A stretch of DNA of 64,000 bases from Lentisphaerota bacterium (lineage in GTDB: Bacteria; Verrucomicrobiota; Kiritimatiellia; UBA8416; VGWJ01), in the NCBI GenBank assembly GCA_016873635.1, contig VGWJ01000010.1, positions 1 to 64,000 of the forward strand, in the 5' to 3' direction. The notes beneath the pieces are model-generated. The model searched no databases. It worked only from the letters and a program-made list of their open reading frames with translations, and had not been told where the DNA came from. Shown here in pieces: positions 50,867 to 55,298 of the stretch (position 1 is the first letter of the stretch; the number at the start of each line of letters is the position of its first letter). The position numbers and the translations under genes were made by a program.

Positions 50867-51625
50867 GTGATCAGAATCGATTCCAGCAACTCAGGCCCGG
50901 CGGATAATGCCAGGCCGGTCGTTTTGCGGAAAGTCAGCGCGGCGGATGCCGTTGTCGCGCACCTGAAGGATCGCATCCGCGGCGGCGAGTTTGCGCCGGG
51001 CCGGCCGCTGCCCAGCGAACGGGAGCTCCTGGGGCAGATCGGGGTCAGCCGCCTGACGCTGCGTGAAGGTCTGGCGCGGCTGACGGCGCTCGGCATCATC
51101 CGCGTTCGCCACGGTAAGGGCGCCTTCGTGGCGGACACCGTGAAGAGCAGTGCCCTGGGCGATGTGCTGTTGCCCTTCTGCTCCCAGGGAGACGCCGGGC
51201 GAATGCAGGACCTCGTCGAGGCGCGCGGCCTCATCGAAGGCGAACTCGCGGCCCGCGCCGCGGTGCGGCGAGGAAAGGCGGACCTGGATCGGCTTGCCGA
51301 ACTGCTGGTCCTTACTCCCGAGGAACTGGAGGATACCGCGACCTTCGCGAGTCGCGACCTGGCCTTCCATCGCGAAGTGGCGCGTATCGCGGGCAACGCG
51401 TTCCTGACGCTGATGCACGAGGCCATCTGCGGCCACGTCGAAGCGTTCCTCGTCCGGTATGGCCGCTCCCGTCGCGCCCGCGCGGCCGCCATGGAACGGC
51501 ACCGTCCGATTCTCGATGCGATTGCGGCCGGCGCCGTGGAACAGGCGCGGGAGACCGCACGTACACACACGCTCGCCTGCCTGTCCGCCGTCCAATCCGC
51601 CCGCAAGCAGAAGGCGCGTTCATGA
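50867..51625 (+). CDS. GntR-family (FadR-type) transcriptional regulator
   Basis: LKDRIRGGEFAPGRPLPSERELLGQIGVSRLTLREGLARLTALGIIRVRHGKGAFVA plus FCD-like C-terminus. Confidence 0.93.
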   Translation: MIRIDSSNSGPADNARPVVLRKVSAADAVVAHLKDRIRGGEFAPGRPLPSERELLGQIGVSRLTLREGLARLTALGIIRVRHGKGAFVADTVKSSALGDVLLPFCSQGDAGRMQDLVEARGLIEGELAARAAVRRGKADLDRLAELLVLTPEELEDTATFASRDLAFHREVARIAGNAFLTLMHEAICGHVEAFLVRYGRSRRARAAAMERHRPILDAIAAGAVEQARETARTHTLACLSAVQSARKQKARS

Positions 51626-52314
51626 ACAATACGCAAACCCTCGCCTTGATTCACACCAGTCTGGTCTTCCTCACCGTCGAGACGATGATGAAGGACCTGT
51701 TCGCGGAAATCCTGCCCGGCGTCCGGCTCATCAATATCGTGGACGATTCGCTGCTGCCGGACGTCATGCGGGTGGGGCACATTCCGCCCGCGGTCTCCTC
51801 CCGCATGACCGACTATGTCGTCGCGGCGGAGAAGACCGGCGCGGATGCCATCCTCTCGCTCTGTTCGTCGCTGGGGCCGGCCGTTGACGCCGCCAGGCCG
51901 CGCGTGCGTATTCCGGTCCTCAAGATTGACGAGGCCATGGCCGCCAAGGCCGCGGCCGACGGGCAGCGCATAGGCGTCATGGCGACGGTTCCGACGACGC
52001 TCGGGCCCACCTGCGACCTGATCCAGGCGCAGGCGGATCGCATCCGAAAGACCATCCGGATCGAGCGCAGCCTGGTTGCGGGCGCGTTCGAGGCCCTGAT
52101 GGCCGGGAACAAGGGGGTGCACGACGAAAAGGTATTCGATGCCGGCCGCGCGCTGGCGGACAAGGTGGACCTGATCGCCTTCGCGCAGGCCTCCATGACG
52201 CGTCTGGCGCCGCGTATGGGCGAGTTGACCGGACGTCCTGTGCTAACGAGTCCCAGACTGGGTATCGAGAATGCGCGGGACGTTCTGCAGAGCCTGCGAC
52301 AAAAAGCAAGCTGA
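51622..52314 (+). CDS. Aspartate/glutamate racemase-family protein
   Basis: ADAILSLCSSLGPAVDAARPRVRIPVLKIDEAMAAKAA...IGVMATVPTTLGPT. Confidence 0.75.
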   Translation: MNNTQTLALIHTSLVFLTVETMMKDLFAEILPGVRLINIVDDSLLPDVMRVGHIPPAVSSRMTDYVVAAEKTGADAILSLCSSLGPAVDAARPRVRIPVLKIDEAMAAKAAADGQRIGVMATVPTTLGPTCDLIQAQADRIRKTIRIERSLVAGAFEALMAGNKGVHDEKVFDAGRALADKVDLIAFAQASMTRLAPRMGELTGRPVLTSPRLGIENARDVLQSLRQKAS

Positions 52315-52359: not shown

Positions 52360-52445
52360 CGGTTGACGACTACGGCGACGACTACGGATAACGAGAGGCC
52401 TCCCTCATTTTCGTCCACCGTAGTCGTCGCCGTAGTCGTCAACCG
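52360..52445. repeat. ~86-bp inverted-repeat element, copy 1 (27-bp perfect arms)
   Basis: ggttgacgactacggcgacgactacgg ... ccgtagtcgtcgccgtagtcgtcaacc. Confidence 0.92.
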
Positions 52446-52508
52446 ATCCGCAACACCTGAGTACTTGCAGATGAAGATGCAGATTCCCGTTGCCATGAAG
52501 GAGCAGGA

Positions 52509-53873
52509 TTGAGCGACCTTCCCGCCATCGTGGTCCTCGACGATGATCCCACCGGAACCCAGACCGTGCATGGCGTCAGCGTGCTCACGACGTGGGACGC
52601 CGCGGATCTGGAGGCGGTGTTGCGAACAGAGCGGGTGTTCTACCTGCTCACCAACTCCCGCGCCCTGACGGCGCGGGCGTCCGAGGACTTGCACCGGGAT
52701 CTGATGCGCCACCTCCTCGCGGCTGCCCGGACGACGGGCCGCGAGATCGAGATCGTGAGCCGCTCCGATTCCACGCTGCGCGGCCACTACCCCCTGGAGC
52801 CCGACATCATCCGGGAGGAACTGGCGCGGGCCGGTCAGCCGGTAGACGCCGAATTGCTGATTCCTTTCTTCGGGGAAGGCGGCCGCGTAACGTTCAACGA
52901 CGTGCATCACGTTGTTCATGCCAGGCGGCCCGTGCCCGTCGCGGAGACCGAATTCGCCCGCGACGCCACGTTCGGTTTTCATAGCTCCAACCTGCGCGAC
53001 TGGATCGAGGAAAAGACCGGCGGCCGGGTGCGAGCCGCGGACGTGGGCGCGGTGAGTCTCGCCGATGTTGCGGCGGGAAGCGCCGCCGTGGCGGACCGGC
53101 TGGTTGCGGGGGTGCCGTCTGGCCGGATGATTGTGAATGCCCGGGATTACGCGGATCTGGAAGTGGCGGTGGCCGGCATTCGCGAGGCGCGACGACGGGG
53201 GCGGCGCTTCGTATTCCGGACGGCCGCTTCCTTCGTGCGCGTCTACGGCGGCATTCCCGAGAGACCGCTGCTGACCGGCGCGGAAATCGTTGATCCGGCT
53301 GGAGCGGGAGGCCTGGTGATTGTGGGATCGCATGTGCCGAAGACCACGGCGCAACTGGAGCGCCTGCTGGCCGGCAACGCCTGCGAAGCGATTGAAGTTG
53401 ACGTTACTGCGGTGGCGGACGGCCGTGGCGATGTCGAGATGGAGCGAACGCGGATGCTCGCCGAGACCGCCCTGCGCGCCCGGCGCACGGCGGTGGTCTT
53501 CACCTCGCGGCAACTGTTGCGGGCCAGGGCGGAGATGTCGGAGCGCAACCTGGAACCGGCGGCCGCGATTTCCGCGGCACTGGCATCGCTGGTCCGGCGT
53601 TTACAGACGCGGCCGCGATTCCTGATCGCCAAGGGCGGTATTACATCGAGCGATGTGGCCACGCGGGGGCTTGGCATCCGCCGCGCCGAAGTGCTGGGGC
53701 AGATTCTGCCCGGCGTCCCGGTCTGGCGCCAGGGCGCTGAAGCCAGGTGGCCGGGTGGCTGTCTGATCGTGTTCCCGGGGAATGTGGGCGGGGATGAGGC
53801 GTTGCGGGAGGTGGTTGAGGAGTTCAGATCGTGTGAGGATCCGAGCGAGAGCATGGGAAAGGGCATCGGTTGA
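52509..53873 (+). CDS. Four-carbon acid sugar kinase family protein (formerly DUF1537)
   Basis: TTG start; IVVLDDDPTGTQTVHG, RSDSTLRGHYPLE, PFFGEGGRVTFNDVHHV, AKGGITSSDVATRGLG, FPGNVGG. Confidence 0.9.
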   Translation: MSDLPAIVVLDDDPTGTQTVHGVSVLTTWDAADLEAVLRTERVFYLLTNSRALTARASEDLHRDLMRHLLAAARTTGREIEIVSRSDSTLRGHYPLEPDIIREELARAGQPVDAELLIPFFGEGGRVTFNDVHHVVHARRPVPVAETEFARDATFGFHSSNLRDWIEEKTGGRVRAADVGAVSLADVAAGSAAVADRLVAGVPSGRMIVNARDYADLEVAVAGIREARRRGRRFVFRTAASFVRVYGGIPERPLLTGAEIVDPAGAGGLVIVGSHVPKTTAQLERLLAGNACEAIEVDVTAVADGRGDVEMERTRMLAETALRARRTAVVFTSRQLLRARAEMSERNLEPAAAISAALASLVRRLQTRPRFLIAKGGITSSDVATRGLGIRRAEVLGQILPGVPVWRQGAEARWPGGCLIVFPGNVGGDEALREVVEEFRSCEDPSESMGKGIG

Positions 53874-53951
53874 TGACTACGGCGACGACTACGGTGGACG
53901 GGGTGATATACTCCACTCGTCATCCGTAGTCGTCGCCGTAGTCGTCAACCG
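53867..53951. repeat. ~85-bp inverted-repeat element, copy 2
   Basis: ggttgatgactacggcgacgactacgg ... ccgtagtcgtcgccgtagtcgtcaacc; supplies the TGA of the preceding CDS. Confidence 0.92.
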
Positions 53952-54041
53952 AAACGGACAGAAAAAGCAAGGGATACAGAACCGCAGTTTAGATTGTTCC
54001 GTCACGATATGCGATGCAAATGCGTCGCATCTTTGTCGTGA

Positions 54042-54093
54042 GCTTTGTCGCGAGCTTTGTCGACAAAGTTTCCGACAAAGCTCGCGACAAAGC
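54042..54093. repeat. Perfect 21-bp inverted repeat built of ctttgtcg-type units
   Basis: gctttgtcgcgagctttgtcg-acaaagtttc-cgacaaagctcgcgacaaagc. Confidence 0.9.
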
Positions 54094-54137: not shown

Positions 54138-55244
54138 ATGAATGCACTGAAAGACGTGAAGGAAACGCTGCTGATGGGGCCGGGTCCGTCCTGTGTGCCG
54201 CCCGCGGTCTATGCGGCGCTGGGGCTGCCGACGATCGGGCATCTGGACCCTCGTTTCATCGCCGTGATGAACGAGATCAAGAGCATGCTACAGCAGGTGA
54301 TGCAGACAAAGAACGAGGTCACCCTGCCGATGTCCGGCACGGGATCCGCCGGCATGGAGACCTGCTTCGTCAACATGATCGAGCCCGGCGATCGCGTGCT
54401 GGTGCTCATCAACGGCGTGTTCGGCCAGCGCATGCAGGATGTGGCCACACGGCTCGGCGCGCAGGTTGACACGCTCGAGTTCGAGTGGGGGACGCCGGTG
54501 CAGGTCGGTGCCGTGCGCGCGAAACTGGCGAACAACCGCTACCGGATCGTGGCCGTGGTGCACGCGGAGACGTCCACCGGTGTGCGCAGTCCCGTGGCCG
54601 AGATCGGCGCGCTGGTCAGGAGCGCCGGCGCCCTCTACATGGTGGACGGCGTGACCAGCCTGGGCGGCATTCCGGTGACGCTCGATGCCTGGGGCGTGGA
54701 CATCTTCTATAGCGGCACACAGAAATGCCTGTCGTGTCCGCCCGGGCTGGCACCCGTGAGTTTCTCGCCGCGGGCGGTAGAGAAGCTTCGCAATCGCAAG
54801 ACCAAGGTGCCCAACTGGTACCTGGACGTCAGCATGATCATCAACTACTGGCAGGGCGCGAAGCGCGCGTACCACCACACGGCGCCCATTAACATGCTCT
54901 ATGGCCTGCACGCCGCGCTGGATACGATCCTGCAGGAGGGCCTGGAGCCGGTCTTTGCCCGGCATCGCGCGGCGCACGAGCAACTGGTCGCCGGTCTCGA
55001 AGCTATGGGGATGCAGATGCTGGTGGCGCCGGAGTATCGCCTGCCGATGCTCAATGCGGTGAAGATTCCCGCCGGCGTGGACGAGGCGGCTGTGCGCAGC
55101 CGCCTGCTGACGGAGCACGGTATCGAGATCGGCGCTGGCCTGGGCCCGCTCGCCGGCAAGATCTGGCGCTTCGGCCTGATGGGCCACACCGCCCGGCCGG
55201 AAAACGTGGAACGGGTGCTGCGGAGCCTGGAGAGCGTTCTGTGA
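54138..55244 (+). CDS. Alanine-glyoxylate/serine-pyruvate-type PLP aminotransferase
   Basis: LLMGPGPSCVPPAVYAAL, PMSGTGSAGMETC, VDGVTSLGGIPVTLDAWGVDIFYSGTQKCLSCPPGLAPVSFS. Confidence 0.92.
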   Translation: MNALKDVKETLLMGPGPSCVPPAVYAALGLPTIGHLDPRFIAVMNEIKSMLQQVMQTKNEVTLPMSGTGSAGMETCFVNMIEPGDRVLVLINGVFGQRMQDVATRLGAQVDTLEFEWGTPVQVGAVRAKLANNRYRIVAVVHAETSTGVRSPVAEIGALVRSAGALYMVDGVTSLGGIPVTLDAWGVDIFYSGTQKCLSCPPGLAPVSFSPRAVEKLRNRKTKVPNWYLDVSMIINYWQGAKRAYHHTAPINMLYGLHAALDTILQEGLEPVFARHRAAHEQLVAGLEAMGMQMLVAPEYRLPMLNAVKIPAGVDEAAVRSRLLTEHGIEIGAGLGPLAGKIWRFGLMGHTARPENVERVLRSLESVL

Positions 55245-55298
55245 GATGAAAATGGTTGATGGCAAATGGCTAATGGCTGATGGCTGATGGAGAGAGCC

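Follow-up and report, generated by a model that had tools for sequence, protein, structure and literature searches.

A palindromic repeat family, probably REPIN/MITE-like and mobile, flanks a sugar-acid kinase-type gene in a Kiritimatiellia genome

Two palindromes on either side of a sugar-acid kinase-type gene, in the 64,000-nucleotide stretch of contig VGWJ01000010.1 analyzed here (the window), probably belong to a REPIN/MITE-like family of non-autonomous mobile repeats, each ~85 bp long and spreading as one intact element of fixed polarity within Kiritimatiellia and their PVC relatives. We put the probability of this reading at roughly 0.6; it is drawn from family membership, from the polarity of the element, and from dispersed and mostly intergenic copies, patchy expansion, solo halves and a tandem array.

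Arm, polarity and fold analysis identifies both palindromes as complete elements. Copy a (positions 52,360–52,445) lies in forward polarity on the plus strand, with its ATN-word side first. Its left arm (52,360–52,387, plus strand) is built of two 12-mers with the slot words CTA/CTA, its centre (52,388–52,417) contains inner ACGA/TCGT pairs and a 3 × 3 mismatch in which ATA faces CCA, and its right arm (52,418–52,445) reads on the minus strand. Copy b (53,867–53,951) has the reverse polarity, on the minus strand, with a left arm at 53,867–53,894 (plus) and a right arm at 53,924–53,951 (minus). The sequence-only reading had proposed arms of ~27 bp around a centre of ~30 bp; the centres are of that size (30 nt in copy a and 29 nt in copy b, part of which also pairs), and the arms are slightly longer, with stems of 28 bp in each copy and one T-G wobble in copy b. 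The hairpins themselves were borne out by near-perfect arms and by predicted folds of −68.0 kcal/mol for copy a (z = −12.1) and −70.1 kcal/mol for copy b (z = −11.9), neither of which was equaled by any of 200 dinucleotide shuffles, and such energies make the large RNA hairpins proposed earlier plausible. That the copies face opposite ways is confirmed by two arm pairs, one of 39 nt (52,360–52,398 versus 53,913–53,951; 95% complementary) and one of 36 nt (52,412–52,447 versus 53,865–53,900; 97% complementary). The two repeat units described in each arm are likewise present, the unit being the 12-mer ACGACTACGGCG, and the TGA stop codon of the kinase gene (53,871–53,873) is indeed supplied by the left arm of copy b. 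Allowing ≤2 mismatches, the window contains 11 occurrences of the core word GGCGACGACTACGG where 1.2 are expected, and an Rfam scan of the window returned two tRNAs only.

Both copies occupy spacers of an apparent operon transcribed in one direction, in the order Asp/Glu/hydantoin racemase family gene (51,622–52,314, plus strand), kinase-type gene with SBD_N and NBD_C domains (PF07005/PF17042; 52,509–53,873, plus strand), class-V aminotransferase gene (54,138–55,244, plus strand) and FAD oxidoreductase gene. Copy a begins 45 nt past the racemase stop and ends 63 nt ahead of the kinase start. The Pfam NBD_C domain of the kinase is complete, although copy b may have altered the C-terminus of the protein, and a comparison with solved structures gave no hit. 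None of the 56 other relatives searched has a kinase homologue at E ≤ 1e-20 that could display the gene in a different orientation, and for lack of such homologues we suppose that the operon holding the two copies may have been acquired. The inverted arms of 36 to 39 nt on both sides of the kinase gene could in principle form an inversion switch that lets the gene flip, as the sequence-only reading suggested. We consider this very improbable: no recombinase gene is present among the neighboring operon genes, the kinase gene is oriented like the rest of the operon and has an AAGGAG ribosome-binding site, and the pair needs no special purpose because its members belong to a dispersed family. Reading the hairpins as intrinsic terminators is ruled out by the sequence, as no T run follows either stem, and no terminator-like signal coincides with either hairpin.

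The same operon carries other repeats. The spacer of copy b also contains an unrelated palindrome built of CTTTGTCGCGAG units (54,031–54,092; −45 kcal/mol, z = −9.0), and GACAAAG words like those in it recur on contig C92 of the same assembly. Between the aminotransferase and oxidoreductase genes, positions 55,245–55,290 hold a near-identical word run (ATGGTTGATGGCAAATGGCTAATGGCTGATGG), and comparable degenerate word runs adjoin copies in other genomes of the group.

The genome assembly to which the window belongs (G000; 3.24 Mb, 145 contigs) contains further copies. A 23-base arm pattern with ≤3 mismatches gave 17 matches against one in the reversed control, and a DNA search with copy a gave 47 matches at about 20 sites; together with hundreds of arm matches in relatives, these counts uphold the earlier view of the elements as REP/MITE-like and dispose of the case in which no other copies exist. 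On some contigs, above all C92, alternating half units are separated by a pyrimidine tract (TTTCTCTTCTCTTT), and other palindromes are nested inside the arms and centres of family copies. Contig C92 itself (L063, 7.9 kb) is dense with several palindrome families and carries small gene pairs that resemble nucleotidyltransferase/HEPN toxin–antitoxin pairs by sequence appearance.

Beyond this genome, arm matches were found in 29 of the 57 genomes of the relatives search (G000 included) and, with ≤2 mismatches, in 31 of 388 genomes of the phylum, at 1 to 122 matches per genome and with three reversed-control hits overall. Several of the single-hit genomes probably reflect chance matches in coding sequence. 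The distribution is patchy and its expansions are genome-specific; most genomes have no match, and a few have dozens to more than 100 (122 in G275, 71 in G365 and 53 in G037). Counts of 80–120 arm matches are reached in some genomes. Among the matches listed in a named GTDB scan are Kiritimatiellae, Lentisphaerae, Verrucomicrobia and PVC metagenome-assembled genomes (MAGs), as well as records labeled Akkermansia muciniphila, which we suspect are misnamed, and Klenkia, which looks like a false positive in a GAC-rich stretch; nearly all matches fall in PVC MAGs. The viral contigs, phages and plasmids searched held no family match.

Each complete copy (79 in the loci read) has two 35-nt units, inverted relative to each other on either side of a short centre, with the consensus CGGTTGACGANNACGG(G)CGACGANNACGG-ATTACGA-centre-TCGTCCACCG... 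and back, and the gap separating the two units is concentrated at 14 to 16 nt. The element ends in CGG/CCG. One copy lacks the outer left arm and is apparently joined to coding sequence at TACGGCGACGA (L068, 3223–3308). Polarity was read from the inner words, ATN on one side and T-N-G/A on the other, in the 67 complete copies of the first collection; these words are opposed in 46 copies, alike in three and unclassified in the rest, from which we conclude that it is the complete element that spreads and that polarity belongs to the element in its entirety. Pairing between the inner words is infrequent (about 15% of cells), and this produces the 3 × 3 internal mismatch; the lower inner-word pairing figure in the permutation set is partly built in, as only copies with opposed words entered that set.

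The slot words CTA, GAA, TTA, TAA, TAG and GAG vary between genomes, and their agreement is highest within one arm (0.55 and 0.64), compared with 0.45 and 0.43 between paired arms and 0.42 and 0.49 in unpaired cross comparisons. The complementarity of the slot words, which at first resembled compensatory, covarying change, thus stems in part from duplicated words, or from words favored by particular genomes, rather than from pairing. Cross-arm slot pairing is nonetheless 0.825 against 0.760 expected, with 39 of 5000 within-genome permutations as high (39 copies), which lends modest support to a maintained hairpin. We read the slot-word pattern as word duplication plus some hairpin maintenance.

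A structured element with a host function, an RNA hairpin maintained between cistrons because it stabilizes mRNA or sets operon polarity, would account for the strong folds and for this modest pairing excess. It would also fit the orientation of copies in tandem spacers with defined polarity, where 14 lie along transcription and three against it. Several observations make us think it unlikely: the family is patchy and expands in bursts in single genomes, copies a and b have opposite polarities within one operon, and pairing between the two halves of the centre does not exceed that of permuted halves (as good in 284 of 500 permutations, a test blunted by the shared consensus). Furthermore, all three types of spacer contain intergenic copies, with 25 between tandem genes, 13 between convergent genes and 13 between divergent genes (by a crude ORF call rather than a trained gene finder). 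By the same crude call, 17 of the 79 copies lie mostly inside an ORF of ≥120 codons, and some of these ORFs are expected to be spurious in G+C-rich DNA.

Other features of the loci bear on the preferred reading of a mobile repeat. Solo half copies are present in the family, and in a MAG whose title is Puniceicoccaceae four or more copies stand in a tandem array at a 106-bp period (L162, 6396–6798), which shows that local duplication of copies also occurs. One gene in G019 is directly preceded by a copy, and its homologue in the congeneric G026 is not; this is a presence/absence difference, and because the two genomes diverge farther upstream, the pair does not provide a clean empty site. No such site emerged from either of two congeneric comparisons, in both of which the neighborhoods had changed. 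Inspection of the flanks by eye revealed no target-site duplication and a weak shared flank consensus, GGGAAAT / AAATG.

The most serious competitor on the side of mobility is a classical REP/BIME (REPIN) family mobilized by RAYTs, with resident Y1 transposases acting in trans. The enzymes are at hand: four Y1 (PF01797) genes occur in G000, and matches to the same family occur in all 12 element-bearing relatives tested, above the cut-off in 11 of them. The doublets, singlets and tandem clusters of the family also match REPINs (PMC3116915). REPs, however, adjoin their RAYT, and just one of 34 Y1 loci in these 13 genomes has a copy within 1.5 kb, which by rough estimate is about the chance level for the density of copies; the RAYT-like genes of G000 have their own, different ends. 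Linkage to a RAYT is accordingly not supported. A single 35-nt unit, moreover, is not palindromic, folds no better than shuffles (z from −1.4 to +1.6) and carries no terminal GTAG/CGTC tag. We regard a classical RAYT-mobilized family as improbable, though somewhat less so than a host-functional hairpin. In two loci (L059 and L061), RAYT-like genes were seen between inverted ends of their own, of GGTCAGACCGAGAAAATAG type and GGGTCAACCCTGAAAATAG type.

Nor does another candidate for the mover stand out beside the copies. No recurring gene family is distinguished by its proximity to them (multi-genome clusters: 14 near, 28 far), and no autonomous parent element came to light in the loci read, where the ORFs between neighboring copies differed in every case inspected and yielded no recurrent candidate. 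Similar small proteins, four-helix-bundle-like by eye, adjoin copies in two genomes (L099, 7086–7919; L118, 3995–4873).

An integron integrase gene (TIGR02249, 464 bits against a cut-off of 265; L262, 3576–4520) lies on contig C15 of G000 with a second tyrosine recombinase alongside. The element resembles an integron attC site in being an imperfect palindrome of similar length, and contig C92 looks cassette-like. We nevertheless hold an attC identity to be extremely unlikely, since the core boxes stand in the opposite arrangement, the ends GTTGACG...CGTCAAC being the reverse of RYYYAAC...GTTRRRY, and neither the element nor the C15, C92, C96 and C8 stretches gave an attC-like site in a simple regular-expression scan.

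Comparison with described repeats places the family closest to REPINs, in which REP doublets form hairpins and the doublet is the replicative unit, extragenic in location and accompanied by solo remnants and tandem clusters (PMC3116915). The family shares with them, and with REP/BIMEs, an inverted unit pair around a spacer, conserved spacing and many dispersed copies, and likewise spreads as a whole unit, is extragenic and leaves solo halves and tandem clusters that include flanks. It differs in the inner 3 × 3 mismatch, in its polarity and in arms of two 12-mers with exchangeable words; because the RAYT link and a self-folding, tagged unit are both missing, we call the family REPIN-like rather than REPIN. 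The GTAG/CGTC-tagged REPs are units of 20 to 40 bp that carry a terminal tag and have their own stem, which measures 8–9 bp in CGTC repeats; GTAG repeats are known in PVC bacteria (Opitutus terrae), and CGTC repeats have no dedicated transposase (PMC3733652). These REPs are similarly short stem-loop repeats that form head–head dimers, whereas in our family it takes two units to form the 28-bp stem, and the ends are untagged; the CGTC type sets a precedent for an unlinked mover. Bacterial MITEs are comparably short, non-autonomous and intergenic, with inverted-repeat ends; here, in contrast, neither a parent transposase nor a target-site duplication was found in the loci read.

Under the preferred mobile-repeat reading, copies would be made by a trans-acting enzyme that recognizes the folded single strand, our first guess being a Y1/HUH-type transposase encoded away from the repeat. 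Copies a and b would then be by-products of insertion into operon spacers, and the hairpins they form in RNA may have a local effect on mRNA decay. More tentatively, the fixed polarity, inner 3 × 3 mismatch and exchangeable 12-mers might mark a PVC-specific class of mobile palindromes moved by some enzyme other than a linked RAYT or a known MITE transposase, a possibility we would not favor at present.

Among open-license PMC texts, no paper was found that joins Kiritimatiellota, Kiritimatiellae or Kiritimatiellia with palindromic, REP or MITE terms. The repeats described here form a family that apparently has no name and that is abundant in some genomes of a bacterial group little studied so far. 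In resembling REPINs without their hallmark RAYT link, the family would allow a clear test of whether palindromes can spread with an unlinked enzyme, and it may help explain the fragmented assemblies of Kiritimatiellia MAGs and repeat-filled operon spacers.
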